This document shows, in pieces, positions 5,709 to 26,548 of a stretch of DNA of 34,276 bases. Position 1 is the first letter of the stretch. Each line of letters opens with the position of its first letter. Made by a program: the position numbers and the translations under genes. The stretch spans positions 1 through 34,276 of IMG/VR virus record IMGVR_UViG_3300032304_000103; one strand, written 5' to 3'. The notes beneath the pieces are model-generated. The model was given only the letters and a program-made list of their open reading frames with translations, had not been told where the DNA came from and made no database searches. This DNA comes from a virus.

Positions 5709-5906
5709 TTGGACAACAGCCGAGTGCTTGCTTACATCGTCAAGGAGATTGACAAACTCCGTGGCGACCAGATTTCCCACCTCGCAGGGGGTGGTGCCAA
5801 AACGTTTGACGAATATCGTCACGTCTGTGGAGTCATCCGAGGTCTGACTCATACAGAAACCATTGTCAAAGACCTTGTGCAACGAATGGAGCAATCTGAT
5901 GAGTGA
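5709..5906 (+). CDS. Small conserved-type phage protein, 65 aa, TTG start
   Basis: This small gene sits between the portal and the co-chaperonin. It starts at TTG, 3 bases after the portal stop, with AAGGAG correctly placed upstream (overlapping the portal's end). No ATG alternative covers the conserved-looking N-terminus. The 65-residue product is amphipathic and helical: an isoleucine/leucine heptad start (VLAYIVKEIDKL), a glycine break (AGGGAKTFDEYRH), then GVIRGL and a C-terminal helix. Its end overlaps the next gene's ATG (5899) by 8 bases. I do not recognise its function. Similar short genes accompany portals in podoviruses, so a head-assembly accessory role is a guess from context. Confidence 0.72.
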   Translation: MDNSRVLAYIVKEIDKLRGDQISHLAGGGAKTFDEYRHVCGVIRGLTHTETIVKDLVQRMEQSDE

Positions 5907-6312
5907 ACTTAATCTAGCGAGTGCAGTGGACCTATCTGGTCTATTGAACAAACCCGCTGAGGACAAGGCGAAGCAACTGCCTGACCCTAAACGCTTTCAT
6001 GTACTTTGTGTAGTCCCAGAGGCTATGGAAGAGTACGCCGAGAGCGATGCTGGCATTATCAAATCTAGCCAAGCTATGCACTATGAAGAAGTCCTGACTT
6101 CTGTATTGTTTGTAGTGAAACTTGGCCCTGACGCGTACAAAGACGTGACTCGTTTTCCGTCTGGTCCGTCATGCAGGGAAGGTGACTTTGTCATCGTCCG
6201 ACCCAACTCAGGCACCCGCCTGAAGATTCATGGCCGTGAATTCCGTATCATTAACGATGACTCGGTTGAAGCAGTTGTGGAAGACCCGCGTGGAATTGGC
6301 CGCGTTGCTTAA
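5899..6312 (+). CDS. GroES-like co-chaperonin
   Basis: The 137-residue product looks like a Hsp10/GroES-type co-chaperonin. After an N-terminal extension (1-30), RFHVLCVVPE (32-41) matches the first GroES strand. A flexible segment with AESDAGIIKSS (47-57) stands where GroES has its mobile GroEL-binding loop. VLFVVKLGPDAY (69-80) matches the EVLAVG strand. The C-terminus GDFVIVRPNSGTRLKI then EFRIINDDSVEAVVED (95-129) aligns with GDIVIF...EVLIMSESDILAIVE of GroES. In T4 a phage co-chaperonin (gp31) replaces GroES for capsid folding. Here the gene lies between portal and scaffold/capsid, which suggests help in capsid protein folding by the host GroEL. I chose ATG 5899 because GGAG lies 7 bases upstream; the frame is open further upstream only through a TTG. 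Confidence 0.72.
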   Translation: MSELNLASAVDLSGLLNKPAEDKAKQLPDPKRFHVLCVVPEAMEEYAESDAGIIKSSQAMHYEEVLTSVLFVVKLGPDAYKDVTRFPSGPSCREGDFVIVRPNSGTRLKIHGREFRIINDDSVEAVVEDPRGIGRVA

Positions 6313-6324
6313 TAGGAGTTAAAA

Positions 6325-7317
6325 ATGGCTGAATTTAAAGACGATTTTGAGTTTCCTGATGAGAAGGAAGCTAAACAAGCTGCTGCTGAAGACGCTAAGT
6401 TTGAAGTAGAGATTGAGGACGATACGCCTCTAGAGGACCGTGGCCGCAAAGCCGCGCCACCCCCAGAAGACCCAACCGAAGATGAGCTAAGTTCATACGA
6501 CGAGAAGGTCCAAGCGCGTATTAAGAAGTTCACACGTGGTTACCACGATGAGCGCCGCGCTAAAGAAGAAGCTCTGCGTGAGCGTCAGGCCGCTGAGTCC
6601 TACGCCAAGCAAGTTTTCGAAGAGAACAAACGCCTCCAACAACAGCTTGCCACCGGTAGCCAAGCCTATATCGAGCAGTCAAAGTCGTCTGCTGATATTG
6701 AATTAAGTTCCGCTAAGAAAGCGTTCCGCGACGCAATTGAAGCTGGCGATATTGATGCTCAAGCCGACGCCCAAGCAGAGATTGCCCGAGCTACGTTGAA
6801 AATTGAGAAAGCGCAGAATATGCGCCCTATCGAGGTAAGAGAGCAGAATAACTTTCAGGCCGCGCAACCTACCCAAGAAGACGCGCCTCGCTTAACTCCA
6901 CGCACTCAAAAGTGGGTAAACGCCAATTCTGATTGGTGGGGCGTTGACGAAGAAATGACTATGACTGCTATGGGTCTTGACAAGAAGCTAGCAAAAGAGT
7001 ATGGTTCGGGCTATGTAGGAAGTGAAGAATACTTCCGCACCATCGATAAAACGATGCGCAAGAGATTTCCTGAGCACTTTGATAGTGAGCAGAGCTATGA
7101 GGATGACGAAACGCCTCCACGAAAGACGTCAGAACCGGCAGATGAGGAAACTCCCCGCCGTGCAACAAAATCCGCTACTGTTGTGGCTCCGGCCTCACGT
7201 AGCACCCCGCCTAATCGTATTAAATTGAAGGCATCCGAAGCAGCGATAGCTCGCCGTCTTGGGGTCCCAATCGAACAATACGCTAAACAGGTTGCTTTGC
7301 TGAAAAGAGGTGAATGA
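6325..7317 (+). CDS. Capsid scaffolding protein (putative)
   Basis: This is a 330-residue, highly charged, helical protein directly upstream of the head genes. Residues 1-65 are acidic. About 65-190 is a long predicted coiled coil rich in E, K, R, Q and A (DEKVQARIKKFTRG, RRAKEEALRERQAAES, then QADAQAEIARATLKIEKAQ). A middle section contains WVNANSDWWGVDEEMT (about 196-211), typical of phage scaffold-type proteins. The C-terminus is basic (RIKLKASEAAIARRLG), as expected for a capsid-binding end. A strong AGGAG is 7 bases before ATG 6325. The stop overlaps the next start in ATGA. Assignment rests on composition and gene order; no protease domain is visible. Confidence 0.75.
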   Translation: MAEFKDDFEFPDEKEAKQAAAEDAKFEVEIEDDTPLEDRGRKAAPPPEDPTEDELSSYDEKVQARIKKFTRGYHDERRAKEEALRERQAAESYAKQVFEENKRLQQQLATGSQAYIEQSKSSADIELSSAKKAFRDAIEAGDIDAQADAQAEIARATLKIEKAQNMRPIEVREQNNFQAAQPTQEDAPRLTPRTQKWVNANSDWWGVDEEMTMTAMGLDKKLAKEYGSGYVGSEEYFRTIDKTMRKRFPEHFDSEQSYEDDETPPRKTSEPADEETPRRATKSATVVAPASRSTPPNRIKLKASEAAIARRLGVPIEQYAKQVALLKRGE

Positions 7318-8403: not shown

Positions 8404-9336
8404 ATGGCTATTTCACGCGCACAACTGCTCAAAGAATTGCTCCCCGGCCTGAACGCTTTGTTCGGCATGGAGTACGCACGCTACGGCGAAGAGCACAAAG
8501 AGATTTACGAAACCGAAACTTCTGAGCGTAGCTTTGAAGAAGAAGTTAAGTTGTCTGGTTTCTCCGCTGCTCCAGTGAAGAACGAAGGCTCTGCAATCTC
8601 CTATGACAATGCACAAGAAGCATGGTCGACTCGCTACAACCACGAGACTATCGCTCTCGGTTTCTCCATCACTGAAGAAGCTGTGGAAGATAACTTGTAT
8701 GACAGCTTGTCTGCCCGCTACACCAAGTCTTTGGCTCGCGCCATGGCTTACACCAAGCAAGTAAAAGCTGCTGCCGTCTTGAACACCGGCTTCAACGGCG
8801 CTTACTTGGGCGGTGACGGTGTGTCATTGTTCGGTTACAACAGCTCTAACGCTCTGGTTAACCATCCTCTGGTTGCTGGTGGCACCAACGCTAACACTCC
8901 ATCTACTCAAGCTGACTTGAACGAGACTTCTTTGGAAGCCGCCGTTATTCAAATCGCCGCTTGGACTGATGAACGTGGTCTGTTGATCGCCGCCAAGCCA
9001 AAGAAAATGGTTGTGCCTCCAGCGCTCCAGTTCGTTGCTACTCGTTTGTTGGAAACCAGCCTCCGTGTTGGCACAACTGACAACGATATCAACGCGATCA
9101 AGAACAACGGTGCTATCCCTGAAGGTTATTGCATCAACCACTTCTTGACCGACAACAACGCTTGGTTCTTGACAACTGACGTGCCTAACGGTTTGAAGCA
9201 TTTCGTTCGTACACCATTGCAAAATTCTATGGATGGTGATTTTGACACCGGGAACGTTCGCTACAAAGCACGTGAGCGTTACAGCTTCGGCTACTCTGAT
9301 GCCCTCGGTATCTTCGGCAGCTCAGGCTCTAACTAA
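8404..9336 (+). CDS. Major capsid protein (HK97 fold, Mu gpT-like)
   Basis: This is the main shell protein of the head, 310 residues. The N-terminus SRAQLLKELLPGLNALFGMEY (4-24) is typical of the Mu gpT-like branch of HK97-fold capsids. It is followed by the E-loop region (about 35-75) with EVKLSGFSAAPVKNEG. The long spine helix region contains SLARAMAYTKQVKAAAVLN (109-127). The C-terminal P-domain includes RYKARERYSFGYSDALGIFG. GGAG is 9 bases before ATG 8404. No N-terminal prohead protease delta domain is visible. A strong terminator lies 24 bases after the stop, consistent with this being the end of the head transcript. Confidence 0.93.
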   Translation: MAISRAQLLKELLPGLNALFGMEYARYGEEHKEIYETETSERSFEEEVKLSGFSAAPVKNEGSAISYDNAQEAWSTRYNHETIALGFSITEEAVEDNLYDSLSARYTKSLARAMAYTKQVKAAAVLNTGFNGAYLGGDGVSLFGYNSSNALVNHPLVAGGTNANTPSTQADLNETSLEAAVIQIAAWTDERGLLIAAKPKKMVVPPALQFVATRLLETSLRVGTTDNDINAIKNNGAIPEGYCINHFLTDNNAWFLTTDVPNGLKHFVRTPLQNSMDGDFDTGNVRYKARERYSFGYSDALGIFGSSGSN

Positions 9337-11719: not shown

Positions 11720-12464
11720 TACCGAGAAGAGCATTAACCTAGCGGGCCGCAAACTCATGATTTGCATCCCCGCTTACGACGGTAAGCTGAACATTGATTC
11801 AGCTTTTGCCTTGTCCAACCTCGCCGTTAAGGTGCAGCCGTTGGGCATTAAGCTCTATCTCACGCACCTCTCGGGGTGCTCCCTTATTACGAAAGCCCGC
11901 AATACCCTTGTCGGGGACTTTCTAGCGTCTGATGCAGACACGATGCTGTTTGTAGACGCGGACGTTGTTATCAACGCTGACGCAGTGCTCCGCCTTATGG
12001 CGCTGAGCCTAGACAAAGACATCACAGCAGGTATCTACCCACGTCGCGGTATGGATCGCAAGTTCTTCTTGGACTTCTACTTGGATGGCCAAGGCGCGTT
12101 TGAGTTTGACGACAACGGTTTGATGCGCGTAAAACGTATCGCCACGGGCTTCATGATGGTGCAACGTCACGTCTTTGAGACAATGATTGAGAAGCACCCA
12201 GAGTGGGCTTACGAGAACGATACGAGAACCCGTACAGACCACGCCATTTTCGATCTGGGTATCGTAGACGGCCAGTATTTTGGTGAAGACTATCTCTTCT
12301 GTGACCGCGCTGCCAAAGACGGTTTTACAGTCCACCTAGACCCAACAATCAGCCTGCCTCACGTGGGCCAAGAGAAGTTTTCCCGCGACTTTAACGAAGA
12401 CGTGTTGCAGCCGTTGCTGGCTGAGCATTGCACTCCCAGACTGAAGGTTGTAAATGGCAACTAA
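11712..12464 (+). CDS. Glycosyltransferase, GT-A fold (GT2-like)
   Basis: This 250-residue nucleotide-sugar glycosyltransferase shows LMICIPAYDGKLN at the N-terminus (15-27) for nucleotide binding and the ITKARNTLV motif (59-67). The metal-binding DxD is D82-A-D84 in LFVDADVVI. YPRRG (110-113) and an ATGFMMVQR segment (144-152) follow, and the acceptor/catalytic loop is FGEDYLFCDRAAKDGF (190-205). H217 in LPHVG could be a further metal ligand. It has no membrane segment, so it acts in the cytoplasm. It overlaps the preceding structural gene by 8 bases and the next by 11. Glycosylation of virion proteins or of modified DNA are both possible; there is no hydroxymethylase in this window to favour the DNA option. 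Confidence 0.85.
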   Translation: MADTEKSINLAGRKLMICIPAYDGKLNIDSAFALSNLAVKVQPLGIKLYLTHLSGCSLITKARNTLVGDFLASDADTMLFVDADVVINADAVLRLMALSLDKDITAGIYPRRGMDRKFFLDFYLDGQGAFEFDDNGLMRVKRIATGFMMVQRHVFETMIEKHPEWAYENDTRTRTDHAIFDLGIVDGQYFGEDYLFCDRAAKDGFTVHLDPTISLPHVGQEKFSRDFNEDVLQPLLAEHCTPRLKVVNGN

Positions 12465-12714
12465 AAAGAAAAGCCCTTCTTTAGCAATAGGTCGTGGCGA
12501 GAAGCTACCAGCGTCTAAGGGTGCTGGGCTGACAGCCAAAGGCCGCGCCAAGTACAACGCCGCTACCGGCAGTAACCTAAAGGCTCCGCAGCCCCAAGGT
12601 GGTAAGCGCAAGGATTCGTTCTGCGCACGTATGTCTGGTATGCCCGGCCCAATGAAAGACGAGAAGGGTAAACCCACTCGTAAAGCCGCATCTTTAGCTC
12701 GTTGGAAGTGCTGA
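12454..12714 (+). CDS. Small basic phage protein (DUF6321-like), 86 aa
   Basis: The 86-residue, very basic protein is rich in K, R, G and A and has a cysteine-containing end. The segment GLTAKGRAKYNAATGSNLKAP, then KRKDSFCARMSGMPGP and a final AASLARWKC, matches a pattern I know from many small phage proteins (annotated as DUF6321 from memory, not searched). Its function is unknown; the basic charge suggests nucleic acid binding or a packaged internal protein. ATG 12454 overlaps the glycosyltransferase end by 11 bases. It ends in a C-terminal cysteine, as do two nearby small proteins. Confidence 0.78.
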   Translation: MATKKKSPSLAIGRGEKLPASKGAGLTAKGRAKYNAATGSNLKAPQPQGGKRKDSFCARMSGMPGPMKDEKGKPTRKAASLARWKC

Positions 12715-12715
12715 T

Positions 12716-12913
12716 ATGACTGAATACTCTGAATCTACTAAAAATCTAATCGACGGCCTATCGCTGGTCACAGTCATAGGAACCCTCATGGACATGCTAC
12801 CCTCGGTATCCGCCCTACTCAGTATTGTCTGGGTTGGCATCCGCATCTACGAAACTGAAACAGTCCAAAAAATGTTGGGCCGTAAGGGGGGCAAAAATGC
12901 CAGCGACGAGTGA
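12716..12913 (+). CDS. Small membrane protein, possible holin
   Basis: The 65-residue protein has a short polar N-terminus and two closely spaced hydrophobic segments: LSLVTVIGTLMDML (15-28) and VSALLSIVWVGIRIY (31-45). A basic, polar C-terminus (KMLGRKGGKNASDE) follows. This is the layout of a two-TM holin or a small membrane-bound phage protein. It starts one base after the preceding stop and overlaps the next gene by 17 bases. It lies far from the endolysin (28543), which already has a holin-like gene beside it. A second holin, an antiholin or an unrelated membrane protein are therefore all possible. Confidence 0.7.
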   Translation: MTEYSESTKNLIDGLSLVTVIGTLMDMLPSVSALLSIVWVGIRIYETETVQKMLGRKGGKNASDE

Positions 12914-13382
12914 AAAGCAAAAGAAATTTATGGACGCCGCAGCGCATAACCCAAAGTTTGCGGAACAGGCCGGTGTCCCAACGGATGTGGCTAAGGACTT
13001 TAGCGAGAAAAGCAAAGGACTGAAGTTTGGTAAGGGCTCAAGCTCACGTGCCGATCTTCAGAAAGTGAACAAACCCAAAACCCGTCAGGGCAAAATGGAA
13101 CTTTTTAAAAAAGGTGGTGATACTATGGCTTCAAAAATGAATCCCGGCTTCATGGCAATGATGGCTAAGAAAAAAGACAGCGGCAAGAAAATGGCCGAAG
13201 GCGGCAAAGCCGACATGAAACAAGACAAAGCTACGGTTAAAAAGGCCGTAGGTATGCACGACAAGCAACAGCACATGGGCAAGAAAACAGACCTGTCCAA
13301 GCTGGCTAAAGGTGGTGGCGTTGAGTCCAAGGGTAAAACCAAGGGCACAATGGTCACTATGAAGCGCGGCGGCAAGTGTTAA
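12897..13382 (+). CDS. Basic small protein with KGKTKG C-terminal tail, 161 aa
   Basis: The 161-residue product is very basic, with K, M, G and A dominating. The conserved-looking N-terminus is PATSEKQKKFMDAAAHNP, then FAEQAGVPTDVAKDF (2-34). It is followed by a lysine/methionine-rich middle (MNPGFMAMMAKKKDSGKKMAEGG). A C-terminal tail GGGVESKGKTKGTM ends in RGGKC. The tail recurs in the next genes. ATG 12897 has AAGGGGGG upstream and overlaps the previous gene; the longer open frame begins at an internal ATT/ATG inside that gene and is not supported. The N-terminus resembles one I have seen in many aquatic phage genes; function unknown. An internal, DNA-associated head protein is a plausible but unproven role. 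Confidence 0.75.
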   Translation: MPATSEKQKKFMDAAAHNPKFAEQAGVPTDVAKDFSEKSKGLKFGKGSSSRADLQKVNKPKTRQGKMELFKKGGDTMASKMNPGFMAMMAKKKDSGKKMAEGGKADMKQDKATVKKAVGMHDKQQHMGKKTDLSKLAKGGGVESKGKTKGTMVTMKRGGKC

Positions 13383-13396
13383 TCTAGGAGCCCATC

Positions 13397-13669
13397 ATGG
13401 CAAAAGACAAAGTCTACACAGCAGAGATGGGTAAACCACCCCAAGACATCGACGGTAAGTCCGCCGGTAAAGTTGATAAGAAAGACGCACCTGAGCAACC
13501 CGGTAGCGGCATCTTTGTTGACGGTAAGCCTTTGAATGACATCAAGCCAATTAAAAGAGCTAATGGTGGCTCTGTTTCCGCTTCTCGTCGTGCCGACGGT
13601 ATTGCTACAAAGGGTAAAACCAAAGGCACTATGATAATGTGCGGTGGCGGCATGGCTAAAGGGAAATAA
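13397..13669 (+). CDS. Small phage protein with RADGIATKGKTKG tail, 90 aa
   Basis: The 90-residue protein has a polar N-terminus (VYTAEMGKPPQDIDGKSAG), a middle GIFVDGKPLNDIKPIKRANGG and a C-terminal SRRADGIATKGKTKGTM, then MCGGGMAKGK. The tail (codons near 13583-13640) is nearly identical at DNA and protein level to that of the gene at 14185-14661 and related to the tail at 12897-13382. AGGAG precedes ATG 13397 by 10 bases. Positive charge is concentrated at the end. Function is unknown; the shared tail implies a common binding partner or targeting role. Confidence 0.72.
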   Translation: MAKDKVYTAEMGKPPQDIDGKSAGKVDKKDAPEQPGSGIFVDGKPLNDIKPIKRANGGSVSASRRADGIATKGKTKGTMIMCGGGMAKGK

Positions 13670-13671
13670 CC

Positions 13672-13950
13672 ATGATGGCGAGCCGTGGCATGGGGGCTGT
13701 AAAAGCTTCTAAGATGCCTAAACCCAAGGTTATCAAGAAACGCGACGGGGATAACCCTGTTGACGTGTACGCTGAGGGCGGCTCGGTCAATGCTGCGGGT
13801 AACTACACCAAGCCATCTCTTCGCAAGAGGATCGTGTCTCAGGTGAAAGCCGCAGCAACGCAGGGTACAGGCGCAGGTCAGTGGTCAGCACGTAAAGCGC
13901 AGTTGGTGGCTAAGAAGTACAAAGCCGCAGGCGGCGGGTACAAGGACTAA
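13672..13950 (+). CDS. Small basic protein with GQWSARKAQL motif, 92 aa
   Basis: The 92-residue basic protein has a YAEGGSV motif (about residue 35) and a conserved block NYTKPSLRKRI, then TGAGQWSARKAQLVAKKYK and AAGGGYKD at the very C-terminus (about 45-92). I recognise the block as a small domain found in many phages and, from memory, in giant viruses of eukaryotes. Often it is fused to the domain encoded by the next gene. The start ATG at 13672 is the first of two adjacent methionines and lies 2 bases after the previous stop. No catalytic residues are visible. Possible role: nucleic-acid-binding accessory protein. Confidence 0.72.
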   Translation: MMASRGMGAVKASKMPKPKVIKKRDGDNPVDVYAEGGSVNAAGNYTKPSLRKRIVSQVKAAATQGTGAGQWSARKAQLVAKKYKAAGGGYKD

Positions 13951-13951
13951 A

Positions 13952-14185
13952 ATGAAAGCGCCGCAAAAATCCCTTAAAGACTGGGGCGACCAGAAGTGGC
14001 GTACTAAGTCTGGCAAACCGTCCTCCAAGACGGGGGAGCGGTATCTGCCTGAGAAGGCCATTAAGTCCCTGAGTGCTGCGGAATACGCAGCTACCACCAA
14101 GGCAAAACGCGCAGGTAAGGCGGCGGGGAAACAGTTCGTTGCCCAGCCAAAGACAGTTGCAAAGAAAACAGCGGGGTTCAGATAA
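13952..14185 (+). CDS. Small basic protein with WRTKSGK and GERYLPEKA motifs, 77 aa
   Basis: The 77-residue, lysine-rich protein begins with LKDWGDQKWRTKSGKPS (about 8-24). It continues TGERYLPEKAIKSLSAAEYAATT and KRAGKAAGKQFVAQPKTVAKKT. The pattern (WGxQKWRTKSGKP, GERYLPE, EYAAT, KxGKQFxxQP) is strongly conserved-looking and resembles the family I know as DUF5872, seen in bacteria, phages and large eukaryotic viruses (from memory, not searched). It starts one base after the previous gene's stop, and its own stop (TAA) overlaps the next ATG by one base. Function is unknown; high positive charge suggests DNA or RNA contact. Confidence 0.76.
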   Translation: MKAPQKSLKDWGDQKWRTKSGKPSSKTGERYLPEKAIKSLSAAEYAATTKAKRAGKAAGKQFVAQPKTVAKKTAGFR

Positions 14186-14661
14186 TGGCAAAAATTGGAA
14201 GACGACCTACGGACGACCAACTGCTTGAAGGCGGGGGCGCGGGTATGGGCGCTGGTGTTGGTGGCACTAAGTGGAGCAATATGCCTTCACTTAAAGGTAA
14301 AGCCAACGCAGTTGACGACATCAAAAAGATGGGTGCTGACACGTCCCACCTCAAAGGCAGTGCTAAAGATGCCGCCAACGAGGCTAAAGATCGCGCAGTT
14401 AACAGAACAGGCGTACGTATTGCAGGCGCAACTGCGCTAAGTGAAGGTACAAAAGCTGCTTTAGGTCGCCCCGCATCTGCAAAAAACGATGATGGAGATA
14501 GCTTCAAGGATATGGAACGCGCCTTACGTGCAGCAGATTCTGATATTGAGTCCAGCAAGTACGGTAAGGGCGACAACATGAAAAAGGGCGGTGTTGTATC
14601 CGCCTCTCGTCGCGCCGACGGTATTGCATCAAAGGGTAAAACCCGTGGAAAGATGTGCTAA
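14185..14661 (+). CDS. Small phage protein with RADGIASKGKTRGKMC tail, 158 aa
   Basis: The 158-residue, Gly/Ala/Lys-rich protein has an N-terminus KIGRRPTDDQLLEGGGAGMG. The middle is helical (DDIKKMGADTSHLK, AANEAKDRAVNRTGVRIAGA), and a further acidic segment is FKDMERALRAADSDIES. The tail is GGVVSASRRADGIASKGKTRGKMC. The last 25 residues repeat the tail of the gene at 13397-13669 almost exactly and end in a cysteine. The start overlaps the previous TAA stop by one base, and the stop directly abuts the next ATG. Function is unknown. It probably belongs with the neighbouring small basic proteins as structural or internal-head factors. Confidence 0.72.
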   Translation: MAKIGRRPTDDQLLEGGGAGMGAGVGGTKWSNMPSLKGKANAVDDIKKMGADTSHLKGSAKDAANEAKDRAVNRTGVRIAGATALSEGTKAALGRPASAKNDDGDSFKDMERALRAADSDIESSKYGKGDNMKKGGVVSASRRADGIASKGKTRGKMC

Positions 14662-15603
14662 ATGGCAGTTACATCCGGCTTAACCTCGTTTAACCTTGAC
14701 CTCACTGAGTTGGTCGAGGAGGCGTTCGAGCGGGCCGGACGTGAGCTGCGTTCTGGCTATGACCTGCGCACAGCTCGTCGTAGTCTCAACATTATGTTCG
14801 CCGACTGGGCAAACCGTGGCATCAACATGTGGACGATTGAGCAAGGTCAGATCGACTTGGTTCAAGGTCAGAGCACCTACGCCCTACCCGTCGATACCGT
14901 TGATTTACTTGAACACGTTATCCGCACGCAAGCTGGCCAGACTTCTAACCAAGCTGACCTGACCATCACACGTATTAGCGTTTCTACCTATGCGACCCTC
15001 CCAAACAAGCTTCAGCAGGCTCGTCCAATTCAGGTGTGGGTGCAACGGCTCGACGGCCAGACTGCGGCGGCAAACACGACTCTTAATGGCGGCATTTCGA
15101 ATACTGACACTACGATTACCGTAGCCTCCGCTCAAGGTCTACCTGCGGCTGGTTTTGTACAGGTCGGCACCGGAGTTACTGCTGAGACAATCAACTACAC
15201 CGCTATTAACGGTAACCAGCTCACAGGCTGTTTCCGTGGGCAGAATGGTACATCCGCCGCCAATCATTCGACTGGCGCAGCAGTGGCGGTACAAAGCCTT
15301 CCAGCTGTGTCCTTGTGGCCGACCCCAGATGGTGCCCAGACATATCAACTCGTTTATTGGCGTCTGCGCCGTACTCAAGATGCTGGTGGTGGTGTGAACG
15401 TGATGGACGTACCTTTCCGCTTTATCCCCTGTATGGCTGCTGGCTTGGCGTTCTACATCGCGGGCAAGATTCCCGAAGGCGCTGAGCGCATCATGATGCT
15501 GAAGCAACAGTACGACGAGGCTTGGGAACTGGCAGCTTACGAAGACCACGAGAAGGCTGCGATTCGGTTTGTGCCGCGTCAGCAGTACATCGGGGGCACC
15601 TAA
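14662..15603 (+). CDS. Tail connector / P22 gp4-like head-to-tail joining protein
   Basis: This 313-residue protein likely binds below the portal. The N-terminal helical core LTELVEEAFERAGRELRSGYDLRTARRS (positions 15-42) matches the gp4-like connector fold. WANRGINMWTIEQGQIDLVQGQSTY follows (50-74). Between about 133 and 212 is an inserted beta domain with GISNTDTTITVASAQGLP and FRGQNGTSAANHSTGA. The C-terminal part returns to helices (AAGLAFYIAGKIPEGAERI). The gene abuts the previous stop, and its stop overlaps the next ATG (TAATG). A second connector-like protein is at 16510-17187. Connector function is inferred from the N-terminal pattern and gene order. Confidence 0.75.
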   Translation: MAVTSGLTSFNLDLTELVEEAFERAGRELRSGYDLRTARRSLNIMFADWANRGINMWTIEQGQIDLVQGQSTYALPVDTVDLLEHVIRTQAGQTSNQADLTITRISVSTYATLPNKLQQARPIQVWVQRLDGQTAAANTTLNGGISNTDTTITVASAQGLPAAGFVQVGTGVTAETINYTAINGNQLTGCFRGQNGTSAANHSTGAAVAVQSLPAVSLWPTPDGAQTYQLVYWRLRRTQDAGGGVNVMDVPFRFIPCMAAGLAFYIAGKIPEGAERIMMLKQQYDEAWELAAYEDHEKAAIRFVPRQQYIGGT

Positions 15604-16031
15604 TGGCTAACCGGTTTGCGTCTGGTAAAAACGCGATTGCCCAATGCGACCGTTGCGATCAGCGGTTCAAGTTAAAGGTGCTCAAGCGCGAGATTATCAA
15701 GACTAGGAATTATGATCTCTTGGTGTGCCCAGAGTGTTGGGACCCAGATCAGCCGCAGCTTCAGCTGGGTATGTACCCCGTTGACGACCCTCAAGGTTTG
15801 CGTAGCCCGCGCCCTGACCGAAGTTATGTAGCGTCTGGCACTACAGGTTTGCAGATTCAGAACGGCAACAGCACAAGCACTTTGGAGCAAGGGTTCCAAG
15901 GTGAGGGTAGTCGCAACATACAATGGGGCTGGGCACCGGTAGGTGGCGCGGCTAACGATGACGCGGGGTTGACGCCAAATTACTTGGCTTTAACGGTAGA
16001 AATTGGTACAGTCACCATATCAACGACGTAA
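15603..16031 (+). CDS. Putative structural protein with Cys4 zinc finger, 142 aa
   Basis: The 142-residue protein starts MANRFASGKNAIAQCDRCDQ. Cysteines C15, C18, C42 and C45 form a rubredoxin-like zinc knuckle (CDRC ... CPEC), followed by WDPDQPQLQLGMYPVDDPQGLRSPRPD (46-72). The second half is a beta-rich segment rich in G, T and A. The combination of a zinc knuckle and a DPQ/RSPRPD stretch is characteristic of a protein family widespread in podovirus tail-connector regions. The start overlaps the preceding stop by one base; the frame's upstream extension lies inside the previous gene. Likely a connector or tail component. Zinc binding is inferred. Confidence 0.75.
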   Translation: MANRFASGKNAIAQCDRCDQRFKLKVLKREIIKTRNYDLLVCPECWDPDQPQLQLGMYPVDDPQGLRSPRPDRSYVASGTTGLQIQNGNSTSTLEQGFQGEGSRNIQWGWAPVGGAANDDAGLTPNYLALTVEIGTVTISTT

Positions 16032-16041
16032 GGAGTCGAAC

Positions 16042-16236
16042 ATGTTTAAATCAGGCGCTCAGGGTGTTAACACCAAAGGCAAAACTAAAGGCCGTAATCT
16101 CGGCGACAGTGGCCCAACCGTGGCTACCCAAAAGGGTAAAGCTGGCAAAGGCGGTAAAGGCGGCGGTAAAACTGACGCTGACATGCTGAGCATGGGTCGT
16201 GGTATGGCTAAAGTTGCTAACCAGAAGCGAGGCTAA
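16042..16236 (+). CDS. Small basic Gly/Lys protein with KGKTKG motif, 64 aa
   Basis: The 64-residue product is dominated by K, G and A (KGKTKGRN, GKAGKGGKGGGK), followed by TDADMLSMGRGMAKVANQ. GAQGVNTKGKTKGR (about 5-18) is the same KGKTKG motif that ends the genes at 12897, 13397 and 14185, here near the N-terminus. ATG 16042 follows AAGGAG at 8 bases. It lies 10 bases after the preceding gene and 2 bases before the next. Very low-complexity, probably disordered and positively charged; a DNA- or virion-interacting peptide is likely. Function unknown. Confidence 0.65.
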   Translation: MFKSGAQGVNTKGKTKGRNLGDSGPTVATQKGKAGKGGKGGGKTDADMLSMGRGMAKVANQKRG

Positions 16237-16238
16237 TC

Positions 16239-16508
16239 ATGGGTAAATTTAGTCAAAAAATGATGGGCAAGGAAGTTGGCTCCGCCAGCGTTTACGCCGA
16301 GCCTCACACAATGGACGGCAAGCCCCTCAAGGCTACGAAGAAGACCGACCCAAACACGTTATCTGGTAAACAGGTAAGCCCACGTACACCCGCAATGCGT
16401 GTGAGTGCTGGTGACCCTGCCGCCGACGACGTCAAAACTACGGGTATCAAAATCCGTGGCACAGGTGCAGCGACTAAGGGCTTGATGGCTCGCGGACCAA
16501 TGGCCTAA
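16239..16508 (+). CDS. Small phage protein ending in RGTGAATKGLMARGPMA, 89 aa
   Basis: This 89-residue polar, basic protein starts MGKFSQKMMGKEVGSASVYAEPH. A loop rich in K, T and P leads to the C-terminal tail KTTGIKIRGTGAATKGLMAR and GPMA (about 66-89). This tail type is familiar from many small phage proteins (memory, not searched) and is a relative of the KGKTKG tails of the neighbours. It begins 2 bases after the previous stop and ends 1 base before the connector gene at 16510. No domain is recognisable. Role unknown. Confidence 0.72.
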   Translation: MGKFSQKMMGKEVGSASVYAEPHTMDGKPLKATKKTDPNTLSGKQVSPRTPAMRVSAGDPAADDVKTTGIKIRGTGAATKGLMARGPMA

Positions 16509-21586: not shown

Positions 21587-24070
21587 ATGTCTCAGCGTTA
21601 CCTCGGCGGTGTCATTACCGCAAACCCTACTGCGCCTACCTTGGCGTCGGCTTCGGGCGTGTGGACGCTTGAGCAGCAGTTCCAGTACGCCCAGACCATC
21701 CAGCCAAAGATCATCGGCAACAGCGTCCGACTGCGTGCATCTGGATATTTCGGCAGAACGATGAGTGCCAGCGGAACTACTGACACATTTTCATTTTGGG
21801 TCAAACGTGGAAAATTGGGTTCGGCACAATCTATATTTGATACATCAACCGGCGCAGTTTCATTTGGAATTATTTTTAATTCATCTGATTCACTTGAGTT
21901 TTATGATTATTCAGTCGCATATAGATTGCGTTTAATTACTACTCAAGTATTTCGTGACCCTTCTGCTTGGTATCATATTGTTTGTCAACTTAATACAACA
22001 AATGCTACATCTTCAAACAGAGCAAAAGTTTATGTCAATGGAGTTGAAGTTACTGCATTTTCAACAGCAACCTATCCAACGCAAAACACTTCATTAAATA
22101 TTGCAACCCTCCAACCGTTTGGTATTGGTATTGTTGGAAATATTGGAGGTCAAAACTTAGACGGCTACCTAACCGAATTTAACTTCGTCGATGGCCAAGC
22201 CCTGACCCCATCTTCGTTCGGTGCTTATGACAGCACGGGCGTGTGGCAACCTATGTCTTACGCAGGTACATACGGCACAAACGGTTTCTACCTAACCTTT
22301 GCTGACAACAGCGCAGCTACGGCTACGACTCTGGGTAAAGACTACTCAGGCAACGGCAACAACTGGACACCGACCAACATCTCTGTGACTGCTGGCGTGA
22401 CGTATGACTGGATGCTCGACTCGCCTACAAATTGGATTGGCGCGTCTGGTGGTAACGGCATTGGTAACTATGCGGTATTAAATCCTATAAAAACATATAC
22501 AGCAAACTTTGTTATTTCTCAAGGAAATCTTCAAGCCACTGATACTTCTTCATCTACCGTAACTGCCTCATCATCTTTAAGAACTCCAACTTCTGGTAAA
22601 TGGTATTGGGAAATTACGGCAACAACCATGTCAGGAATTTTGGGTTATATATGTGCGTCTAATGAATCAACAGCAGATTCAAATACAGGTGGCGCATCAG
22701 GATATTACAGGTCAAACGGTGCGATTGGAAATTTGACCAATGTTGTTCAAACTTCTGGAAATTCCTATACATCAGGAGATGTTATTGGTGTTGCTGTTGA
22801 TGTTGATAATGGAACTGTACAGTTTTATAAAAACAATGTGGCACAGGGAGCAACGCCGTCATTTACTTTTACAACGGGAACAGTTATTGTTCCTTTACTC
22901 GCTACAGACAATTCTGCGGGCACAAAAACTTTCAATTTAAACTTCGGACAGCGCCCCTTTGCCTACACCCCACCCACAGGCTTCAAGGCGCTGAACACGC
23001 AGAACCTGCCAGCAGTGACGATCAACAACGGCGCTCAGTACATGGCAGCTACGACCTACACGGGTAATGGTTATCCAACATCTGGAACTCAAACAATTGC
23101 CAACACAGTTAACGGTATTTCTTTGCAACCAGATCTTGTGTGGATAAAGATAAGAAGTGCAACGGGGAGCCATGTATTAACCGACTCAGTTAGGGGTGTT
23201 AATAGCCAACTGTTTTCAAATCAAACTGCGGCACAAGAAACCAATACTGACCATGTAACTGCTTTTACTTCTAGCGGATTTAGTTTAGGAACTGGAACAT
23301 CTGGAACTTATCCAAGTACAAACAACAATGGTGCAACCTACGTCGCTTGGCAATGGAAAGCCGCAGGGTCTTCTGTGTCCAACACATCTGGCTCTATAAC
23401 TTCAACCGTAAACGCAGGAACTACACAAGGTTTTAGCGTGGTGACGTATACAGGTACAGGTGCTAATGCTACTGTTGGTCATGGCTTGGGTGTTGCTCCA
23501 AAGATGGTGATTGTAAAAAGCCGTTCCCAACCGCAATCATGGGTAGTGTGGTTTACTAGTTTTGCTGGGACAGAATATTTGTTGTTAAACTCAACTGCGA
23601 CAAAAGGTACGGCGGCTAACATTTGGAATAGCACTGTACCAACATCTTCTGTGTTTAGCATTGGAACTGATGTTTCTGTAAACATCAATGGCGCTACGCA
23701 GGTTGCTTATTGTTTTGCAGAAGTCGCTGGCTACTCCAAGTTTGGCAGCTACACGGGTAACAACAGTACAGATGGCCCGTTTGCGTATTGCGGTTTCAGA
23801 CCTCGATTTGTCCTTATTAAAGACACAAACACTGCTGGTTATTGGGTCATCTATGACTCATCACGCGGCACTTACAACGTGGTTGCTGAATACTTGCAAG
23901 CGCAATCATCGGCAGTTGCCGTTTCTACCTATGCGCAGCTAGACTTATTAGCTAACGGCTTCAAGATCAGGCAGTCGAACGCAACAGCTGGGCAAAATAA
24001 CGTCTCTGGAAATACTTACATCTACATGGCCTTCGCCGAGAACCCCTTTAACACCGCCCGTGCGAGATAA
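21587..24070 (+). CDS. Tail fiber with LamG- and SPRY-like domains, copy 1 (827 aa)
   Basis: The 827-residue protein is modular. N-terminus (1-45): SQRYLGGVITANPTAPTLAS, an attachment-type segment. About 48-205: concanavalin/LamG-like domain with FSFWVKRGKLGSAQSIFD, RDPSAWYHIVCQLN and VYVNGVEVTAF. About 295-465: SPRY-like domain with SGKWYWEITATTMSG and DVDNGTVQFYKNNVAQG. About 470-827: a phage fiber region with GFKALNTQNLP, YVAWQWKAAG, GTGANATVGHGLGVAPKM and AYCFAEVAGYSKFG. Closely related to the next gene. LamG and SPRY modules suggest binding to cell-surface glycans or proteins, so a receptor-binding fiber is likely. Base composition is patchy: parts of the first domain and the SPRY part are clearly A/T-richer than the flanks. 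Confidence 0.85.
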   Translation: MSQRYLGGVITANPTAPTLASASGVWTLEQQFQYAQTIQPKIIGNSVRLRASGYFGRTMSASGTTDTFSFWVKRGKLGSAQSIFDTSTGAVSFGIIFNSSDSLEFYDYSVAYRLRLITTQVFRDPSAWYHIVCQLNTTNATSSNRAKVYVNGVEVTAFSTATYPTQNTSLNIATLQPFGIGIVGNIGGQNLDGYLTEFNFVDGQALTPSSFGAYDSTGVWQPMSYAGTYGTNGFYLTFADNSAATATTLGKDYSGNGNNWTPTNISVTAGVTYDWMLDSPTNWIGASGGNGIGNYAVLNPIKTYTANFVISQGNLQATDTSSSTVTASSSLRTPTSGKWYWEITATTMSGILGYICASNESTADSNTGGASGYYRSNGAIGNLTNVVQTSGNSYTSGDVIGVAVDVDNGTVQFYKNNVAQGATPSFTFTTGTVIVPLLATDNSAGTKTFNLNFGQRPFAYTPPTGFKALNTQNLPAVTINNGAQYMAATTYTGNGYPTSGTQTIANTVNGISLQPDLVWIKIRSATGSHVLTDSVRGVNSQLFSNQTAAQETNTDHVTAFTSSGFSLGTGTSGTYPSTNNNGATYVAWQWKAAGSSVSNTSGSITSTVNAGTTQGFSVVTYTGTGANATVGHGLGVAPKMVIVKSRSQPQSWVVWFTSFAGTEYLLLNSTATKGTAANIWNSTVPTSSVFSIGTDVSVNINGATQVAYCFAEVAGYSKFGSYTGNNSTDGPFAYCGFRPRFVLIKDTNTAGYWVIYDSSRGTYNVVAEYLQAQSSAVAVSTYAQLDLLANGFKIRQSNATAGQNNVSGNTYIYMAFAENPFNTARAR

Positions 24071-24073
24071 CAC

Positions 24074-26548
24074 ATGACCCAATACTCTGGAAAGATTATC
24101 CGCAAAAACCCTGTAGTGCCGACCCAACAATCGGCCTCTGGGGTGTGGACGGTGACTGATGCTGCGGTAGCCACTAGAAACAACACGTGGCCCGTGGCCG
24201 GTGTGCCTGACCCTATCAGCCGTTCTGTGCGTCTGCGTTCAAGTGCGACTGCTTACTTTACTCGGACATTCGCTGCGGCCCCAACCGTTCGCACGAAGCA
24301 GACAGTTTCCGCTTGGGTGAAGCGCGGTTCATTGGGCGCAAGCCAAGGCATTGTGTCTGGCTATGACGGCACCTCTGCAAGCCGTTCGGTGCTGTATTTT
24401 AGTTCGACAGATCAACTGGCGTATGACAACGGCGGCTCTGCCGCTGTGCTGCTTGCGTCAACGGCAGTCTACCGCGACCCAAGCGCGTGGTATCACATAC
24501 TTCTTTCCATCGACACCACGCAGGCGACAGCATCAAACCGAGTGCTGCTGTTCGTCAACGGTACGCAGTTGACGGCGTTCGCTTCGGCTAACTATCCCGC
24601 GCTGAACGCAAACACGCAACTGCTGTTGAACAACGCCAACAACTTCATTGGGCAGTTGGCAGCAAGCACATGGTTCTTCGACGGCTACATGACCGAAGTC
24701 AACTTCATTGACGGCCAAGCCCTAACGCCTTCCAGCTTTGGTACCACCGACCCAGAGACGGGCGCTTGGGAACCCATGCAGTACACAGGTACATACGGAA
24801 CCAACGGGTTCTACTTGGACTTCAGAGACAACACCAGCACCACAACGCTGGGGCTTGACTACAGCGGCAACAGCAACAACTGGACTACCAACAACATCTC
24901 GGTAACTGCTGGCATCACCTACGACTCAATGTTGGACGTACCGACTCCTTGGGTGGGCTACTCTGCTACGACAGACACCAGTGCGGTGACGCGGGGCAAC
25001 TATGCGGTGCTGAATCCTTTAGATAAGACCGCCTCCCTTTCTGTTATAAACGCCAATTTGACTGCATCATTCAACTCAACAAATCAAGTTTGTTTTTCAA
25101 CATTTGGCGTATCAAATGGCAAGTGGTATTGGGAGGTTAACCCATCAACAACTACCGAAGACATGATTGGAGTTGCAAATGCTTCTGCTACAAGAAGCGG
25201 ATATACAGGCAGTGATGCAAATGGATGGTCATATTACAAAACAAATGGCAATAAATACAATAATGCCACTGGAACTGCTTATGGTGCAACTTATGCTAAT
25301 ACAGACATCATAGGTGTTGCGTTGGACATGGATGCAGGAACTTTAACTTTCTACAAAAACAATGTAAGCCAAGGAACTGCGTTCACAGGGTTAACTGGAA
25401 CATTGTTTCCAACATTAAGCACAGCAGGAACTGGTGCGGCTCAGTCAATCAACTTCGGTCAACGTCCTTTCACCTACACACCCCCAACAGGATTCAAAGC
25501 ACTGTGCACAACCAACCTGCCTAACCCAACGATTAGGCTGGGCGCTCAGTATTTTGCTACGTCTTTGTATACGGGTAACGGCTCTACACAGAGCATTGTG
25601 AACAACAGTAACACCACTGCTACTACGTTCCAACCTGACTTTGTTTGGACCAAATCCAGAAGCTATGTAAACTCCCACCGCCTATTTGATGCTGTTCGTG
25701 GAACACAGGCAGTGTTGTATTCAAACTTAACTGCGGCAGAAACTACTGAAACAGGTACGCTTACAGCATTTAACAGCAATGGCTTTTCATTAGGCTCAAA
25801 CGGTGAATGTAATACCAACGCAGCTACATACGCTGCTTGGCAATGGCGGGCTGGCGTATCTGCGGTATCTAACACATCCGGCACAATCACCTCTACTGTA
25901 GACGCAGGGACTACACAGGGCTTCTCGATTGTGACTTATGCAGGCACAGGCGCAAATGCAACTGTTGGTCACGGGCTTGGGGTTGCTCCAAAGATGATTA
26001 TCGTTAAGTCGCGCAACGCATCGAACAACTGGCCTGTTTGGCATGGAGTTATAACAGGTTCGCAGTTTTTGCTTCTAAATACCACGGATGCGGTTGGCAC
26101 TGCTGCAAACGTATGGAACAGCACCGTACCGACTAGCAGCGTTTTCAGCGTTGGTACAAACATTGGTACAAACAACAGCGGCACAACCTATGTCGCCTAC
26201 TGTTTTGCAGAGATAGCAGGTTATTCCGCGTTTGGTTCGTACACAGGCAACGGGTCTGCTAACGGTCCGTTTGTGTACTTGGGGTTTAGGCCACGTTTTG
26301 TCATGATTAAGCGCACTGACAACACGGGGTTCTGGACAATGTTGGATTCTTCGCGCCTCGGTTATAACGTCACTGACAAACCGCTATACGCAAACGTATC
26401 GAATGCTGAGGCAACAGCGCAGGGAACAGACTTTATTGCTTCTGGATTCAAAGTCAGAGCAACAGACAATGATGTAAACACATCTAGTGGCACTTACATC
26501 TACGTGGCATTTGCCGAGAACCCCTTCAAATTTAGTAACGCTCGTTAA
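24074..26548 (+). CDS. Tail fiber with LamG- and SPRY-like domains, copy 2 (824 aa)
   Basis: The 824-residue tandem paralog of 21587-24070 has the same domain order. The N-terminal attachment segment is TQYSGKIIRKNPVVPTQQSAS. The LamG-like part has VSAWVKRGSLGASQGIVSGYD and RDPSAWYHILLSID. The SPRY-like part has NGKWYWEVNPSTTTEDMIGVA and DMDAGTLTFYKNNVSQG. The C-terminal part contains YVAYCFAEIAGYSAFGSYTG. Sequence identity to copy 1 is highest in the C-terminal half and lower in the LamG region. It begins 3 bases after copy 1. Two different binding modules in tandem would allow mixed fibers or a wider host range. Base composition is more uniform than in copy 1 except around 25020-25440, which is A/T-richer. 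Confidence 0.85.
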   Translation: MTQYSGKIIRKNPVVPTQQSASGVWTVTDAAVATRNNTWPVAGVPDPISRSVRLRSSATAYFTRTFAAAPTVRTKQTVSAWVKRGSLGASQGIVSGYDGTSASRSVLYFSSTDQLAYDNGGSAAVLLASTAVYRDPSAWYHILLSIDTTQATASNRVLLFVNGTQLTAFASANYPALNANTQLLLNNANNFIGQLAASTWFFDGYMTEVNFIDGQALTPSSFGTTDPETGAWEPMQYTGTYGTNGFYLDFRDNTSTTTLGLDYSGNSNNWTTNNISVTAGITYDSMLDVPTPWVGYSATTDTSAVTRGNYAVLNPLDKTASLSVINANLTASFNSTNQVCFSTFGVSNGKWYWEVNPSTTTEDMIGVANASATRSGYTGSDANGWSYYKTNGNKYNNATGTAYGATYANTDIIGVALDMDAGTLTFYKNNVSQGTAFTGLTGTLFPTLSTAGTGAAQSINFGQRPFTYTPPTGFKALCTTNLPNPTIRLGAQYFATSLYTGNGSTQSIVNNSNTTATTFQPDFVWTKSRSYVNSHRLFDAVRGTQAVLYSNLTAAETTETGTLTAFNSNGFSLGSNGECNTNAATYAAWQWRAGVSAVSNTSGTITSTVDAGTTQGFSIVTYAGTGANATVGHGLGVAPKMIIVKSRNASNNWPVWHGVITGSQFLLLNTTDAVGTAANVWNSTVPTSSVFSVGTNIGTNNSGTTYVAYCFAEIAGYSAFGSYTGNGSANGPFVYLGFRPRFVMIKRTDNTGFWTMLDSSRLGYNVTDKPLYANVSNAEATAQGTDFIASGFKVRATDNDVNTSSGTYIYVAFAENPFKFSNAR

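Follow-up and report, generated by a model that had tools for sequence, protein, structure and literature searches.

Why do several small basic proteins of one phage, otherwise unlike one another, share the same short peptide, and what might this peptide do? The stretch of DNA analysed here (the window) comprises 34,276 nucleotides (IMG/VR virus record IMGVR_UViG_3300032304_000103, positions 1 to 34,276) and is the late module of a podovirus-like phage. Its genes are arranged in the order large terminase, portal, GroES-like protein, probable scaffold (6325-7317), capsid, glycosyltransferase-like gene and DUF6321 protein, followed by a cluster of small basic proteins, an SU10-type adaptor and the tail genes. 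The capsid protein gave hits to the Phage_capsid_4 and Mu-like gpT families, both of the HK97 fold. The GroES-like protein of the head module (5863-6312) is common to the Pag-Yong1 and HTVC023P relatives. Two tail proteins encoded next to each other (21587-26548; 827 and 824 aa) have similar ends (YIYMAFAENPF and YIYVAFAENPF) and are probably paralogues.

The features relevant to the shared peptide (the tag) are as follows.

8404-9336, +, major capsid protein (Phage_capsid_4 / Mu gpT type, family hits); upstream border of the slot
12454-12714, +, DUF6321 protein of the same cassette; untagged in the window, tagged in 13 of 66 orthologues
12897-13382, +, 161-aa basic protein, net charge +23, with a family-specific tag, GVESKGKTKGTMVTMKRGGKC-stop
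13329-13346, +, tag core KGKTKG, 11 aa before the stop of 12897-13382
13397-13669, +, 90-aa basic protein ending in SASRRADGIATKGKTKGTMIMCGGGMAKGK-stop
13589-13627, +, tag core RADGIATKGKTKG, 13 aa before the stop of 13397-13669
13672-13950, +, basic cassette member, phrog_17747; no tag seen
13952-14185, +, basic cassette member, phrog_14910, homologues 65-94% identical; no tag seen
14185-14661, +, 158-aa basic protein ending in SASRRADGIASKGKTRGKMC-stop, the canonical tag
14611-14649, +, tag core RADGIASKGKTRG, 3 aa before the stop of 14185-14661
14662-15603, +, SU10-type adaptor; downstream border of the slot
16042-16236, +, 64-aa basic protein with an N-terminal tag variant, AQGVNTKGKTKG
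16075-16092, +, KGKTKG of 16042-16236, residues 12-17, near the N terminus
16239-16508, +, 89-aa protein with a related C-terminal tag, RGTGAATKGLMARGPMA-stop
16455-16481, +, RGTGAATKG, 8 aa before the stop of 16239-16508

A first-pass annotation had pointed to five ORFs with these motifs, and all five and their motifs were found at the positions it gave. Four of the proteins contain KGKTKG or KGKTRG, as it had described, three of them in the C-terminal region and the fourth (16042-16236) near the N terminus. The SRRADGIA reported ahead of the motif in two proteins is likewise present, and SASRR directly precedes both RADGIA copies. These motifs are not due to chance: KGKT[KR]G occurs four times in the proteins of the window (0.02 expected) and RADGIAxKGKT[KR]G twice (none expected), and residue-shuffled proteins of the cluster gave a mean of 0.006 matches. 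The reported likeness at the DNA level was also recovered, with 52 of 67 bases identical between the two long copies (13568-13634 and 14590-14656). The fifth protein (16239-16508) had been said to end in a related motif; the related motif RGTGAATKG is there, but it lies 8 aa before the stop and the actual end is LMARGPMA. Searches of phages by tblastn with the 14185, 13397 and 16239 proteins yielded no useful match.

Distribution and form of the tag

A scan of IMG/VR viral contigs for exact RADGxAx[KR]GKT[KR]G identified at least 172 tags in at least 120 stretches, which are the first listed and not a random sample. Among the 172 listed matches, 138 end exactly 3 residues before the stop and most others 10-17 residues before it; counted by protein, 144 of the 180 tagged proteins among the matches listed end exactly 3 aa after the motif. 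Because the scan pattern contained no stop, this exact spacing is independent evidence of a C-terminal tag. The full tag reads [ST]AS[KSR]RADG[IC]A[QTV][RK]GKT[RK]G[KR][MIF][VCI]-stop, so that conservation extends beyond the searched pattern to [ST]-A-S-[KSR] ahead of it and [KR]-[MIF]-[VCI] behind it; among the matches listed, A is found at -3 in 130 of 141 and S at -2 in 138 of 141. Although K and R interchange freely, three Gly and one Asp are among the invariant positions (partly fixed by the search pattern), and the tag is thus more than a basic patch. One protein, encoded at L006:5303-5764, carries two tags in tandem.

In 21 records searched over their whole length, 46 matches were found to the tag and none to the reversed pattern. 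The tagged genes in the 20 larger-record regions annotated (1-5 per record) all reside in a single slot between capsid and adaptor, with the same neighbours as in the window. Homologues of window genes are present at 118 of the 120 listed loci; the other two loci are pieces of 1.1-1.2 kb, and the larger regions of their records do have such homologues. The phages with the tag form a large freshwater group. Of the eight relatives compared, all cultured or complete and reached via the capsid and portal proteins, only Planktothrix phage Pag-Yong1 has the tag, which forms the very end of UMO75986.1, encoded in the same slot. No such tag was found in CRP-902, GB2A, QDWS535 and HTVC027P, which have the same head type, and the tag is therefore not essential to that head type. 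A tblastn search of annotated phages with the 27-aa tag returned nothing, probably owing to the short query and the low-complexity filter. Matches in bacterial sequences of Chromohalobacter, Leeia and JAIUNW are internal to other reading frames and were set aside as apparent chance matches; the remaining matches in bacterial genomes are phage-like contigs in MAGs.

Proteins carrying the tag

The 171 tagged bodies among the matches listed fall into 90 BLAST clusters, an upper figure because disordered bodies evolve fast. When 89 cluster representatives were aligned, only the last ~25 C-terminal residues were common to all. Nearly all of these 89 carriers lacked a match in Pfam, PHROGs and NCBIfam, no family was common to two or more of them, and none of the three libraries contained a model covering the tag. 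Of 53 tagged bodies, 52 are net basic; for untagged ORFs of the same strand, the figure is 197 of 546 (p=2e-20), this untagged set coming from a simple ORF caller and including some false ORFs. A Shine-Dalgarno-like site lies ahead of 73% of the tagged genes (22% in the background), indicating that the tagged ORFs are real genes.

Since the bodies are of low complexity and mostly without a family match, they could constitute a single fast-evolving disordered family of hypervariable paralogues, in which the tag is the sole functional domain and the bodies are filler. We regard this as improbable, because at least three clearly different bodies are tagged, namely DUF6321, the 12897 family with its KQxKFM helical module, and a w16042-like protein in locus L111. 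In this last protein (L111:3135-3641), a w16042-like segment is followed by a RADGIA tag. DUF6321 proteins were found both with the tag (13) and without it (53).

The 12897-13382 protein consists of a folded N-terminal three-helix module (aa 1-40), a disordered linker and the tag; in the predicted structure, only aa 1-40 reach a pLDDT of 85-95, and the tag is predicted to be unfolded. Its tag is kept in 16 homologues, with T148 invariant. The 40-aa helical module (window 12897-13016) also occurs in the jumbo-phage proteins PHIKZ165.1 and 201phi2-1 gp383, and proteins annotated as virion structural begin with it in GAP32 (GAP32_317) and PBECO4, which is the one indirect link between a tagged protein and virions. 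Residues 104-140 (window 13206-13316) match separate proteins of 61-65 aa in loci L156 and L157 and appear to represent another shuffled short module. The 13952-14185 product is a 77-aa basic protein with 65-94% identity over 15 homologues and an AlphaFold model of pLDDT 84, and its predicted fold had no match in the PDB. PDB searches with the capsid, 12897, 13952 and DUF6321 proteins likewise gave no usable match, and no PDB chain matched the tag profile.

Conservation of the peptide and similarity of tags within genomes

Ka/Ks values for tags selected by a regular expression were set aside, as the pattern itself fixes residues, and were replaced by tests of silent sites and of positions outside the pattern. 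Between loci, 0.595 of the codons for the same residue differ (0.671 expected from codon usage), whereas within a locus 0.465 differ (0.665 expected); the three tags in L064 are identical as DNA. The peptide is thus retained as the underlying DNA changes, and some copying within genomes took place in the past. The DNA-identical copies and the within-locus deficit of silent differences would also fit a DNA element, mobile or regulatory, that sits at gene ends, or homology that promotes recombination, with copying from gene to gene. This origin is very improbable, given that silent sites are nearly randomised between genomes while the peptide stays, and that both the reading frame and the stop distance are fixed. 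Interpretation of the tag as a ribosome-binding site or DNA element was rejected because of the silent sites.

Tags from the same genome resemble one another. Among proteins whose bodies have no mutual BLAST match, agreement at the variable tag positions was 0.68 within a genome, whereas permutations gave 0.49 (sd 0.031, at most 0.59) and GC-matched genomes gave 0.52. The similarity extends to the non-charge position +6 (0.66 vs 0.27). This pattern fits coevolution with a common partner, and old duplication of the tag inside a lineage could also contribute. In a search for a receptor, no gene clearly tracked the tag in the compared set, w20733 doing so weakly.

The same data bear on whether the tag is instead a nucleic-acid-binding tail on DNA- or RNA-condensing or regulatory proteins, which would work either inside infected cells or on DNA already packaged, with no protein reading the tag. 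Bodies and tags are both basic, K and R replace one another, and the charge would fit a generic DNA-binding role equally well. Plain charge binding, however, needs neither the invariant Gly and Asp nor a fixed distance from the stop, and the agreement within genomes at non-charge positions such as +6 also argues against such a tail, which we consider rather unlikely.

A second, marine form of the ending

The ending of the fifth protein, RGTGAATKGLMARGPMA, represents a second form, RGxGAATKG. At least 120 viral stretches contain this form, usually at a distance of 7-8 residues from the stop; in HTVC023P, it is carried by gp32 and gp51. Like the freshwater tag, this marine form is arranged as R-[AG]-x-G-x-A-x-[KR]-G close to the stop, but it lacks KGKTKG, usually lies farther from the stop and mostly occurs once or twice per genome. 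The hybrids RGDGIAxKG and RGGGCExRGKTKG link the two forms, and the earlier suggestion that the fifth protein's ending is related was thus a reasonable guess. From these short motifs, we infer that the marine and freshwater endings may belong to one family. A small protein of phage DSL-LC04 starting with MAGRGMGCATRGGG (L135:1315-1542) has an RGxGxAxRG motif at its N terminus.

Comparison with known systems

In phage T4, the capsid targeting sequence (CTS) of the internal proteins IPI-III and of Alt is N-terminal and is cut off by the prohead protease gp21. These small head proteins are highly diverse and conserve only this short peptide at their ends (PMC3012670). The tag is likewise a terminal peptide common to otherwise diverse small phage proteins, but it differs in sequence and is mostly C-terminal, the N-terminal form being found only in 16042-16236. 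Furthermore, the T4 peptide is processed, and the head-module proteins scanned here gave no match to a protease family. Cargo peptides of encapsulins occur at either end of unrelated cargo proteins that are encoded beside the gene for an HK97-fold shell (PMC7355545), and the tagged genes similarly occupy a slot adjoining the capsid gene. However, the encapsulin peptides are ~10 aa long and bind a hydrophobic luminal pocket, whereas the tag is ~20 aa, rich in Gly and Lys/Arg, and belongs to a tailed phage. By these comparisons, the tag appears to resemble both systems in layout and to be a member of neither. DUF6321 (PF19846) is likewise a short basic module, one that contains Cys; it lies at the C terminus in several families of phage proteins, whose lengths differ widely, and is common in cyanophages and pelagiphages. 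It differs from the tag in sequence and is itself a body with or without the tag. The tag was not mentioned in the literature found among open-access papers.

Proposed function of the tag

The first-pass annotation had proposed one short, usually C-terminal peptide on differing small basic proteins, and the peptide indeed proved to be conserved as peptide rather than as DNA, modular and encoded beside the capsid gene. Its further proposal of a targeting signal, for which one common partner was among the options, fits the similarity of tags within genomes and the position of the slot, and its candidate virion system is our leading hypothesis.

The peptide, exposed and unfolded by prediction, its fixed C-terminal distance, its hypervariable basic carriers and the location of their genes beside the capsid gene point to an address tag in head assembly. 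From sequence features of this kind, we consider, with a probability of about 0.5, that the tag is an exposed linear peptide read by one head-assembly component, which loads varying small basic proteins into the virion. The tag, predicted to be unfolded, would be recognised by a single component common to head assembly, putatively the capsid, scaffold, portal or adaptor, and would deliver to the virion a set of proteins that can change and whose members are small, basic and for the most part disordered; their most likely destination would be the head interior with the DNA. The tagged proteins would then be present in virions, and their bodies may have DNA as their target or work in the host following ejection. 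That some copies of the tag are N-terminal or 10-17 aa from the end counts against a loading tag.

The slot also borders connector genes and the module includes a GroES-like gene, as might be expected if the tag were a processing site or if its common partner lay elsewhere than in the head lumen, for which the capsid exterior, the connector, the tail, a host chaperone and a secretion factor are candidates. This is unlikely, as no tail or connector protein with a tag was present among the regions annotated and no protease family was matched in the head-module proteins scanned, though a protease may have gone unrecognised there. More specifically, the loading tag may be an uncleaved, mostly C-terminal cargo-tag code particular to aquatic podovirus-like phages. 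RADGxAx[KR]GKT[KR]G would be the freshwater form of this code and RGxGAAxKG its marine form, and one receptor would bring interchangeable basic payload into the capsid; we put this forward tentatively, at somewhat below even odds. Overall, the tag has the appearance of an address label not yet catalogued, whose likeliest use would be to load proteins into virus particles.

Almost all head-module genes of the tagged phage group are of unknown function. Whatever its mechanism, the tag supplies a marker that neither the family libraries nor the papers searched contain. Should it prove to be a loading signal, it would have arisen independently of the T4 CTS as its C-terminal equivalent and could be used to place chosen proteins in such capsids. 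A 20-residue pattern would then single out the payload proteins of this phage group, which is very common and nearly uncultured.
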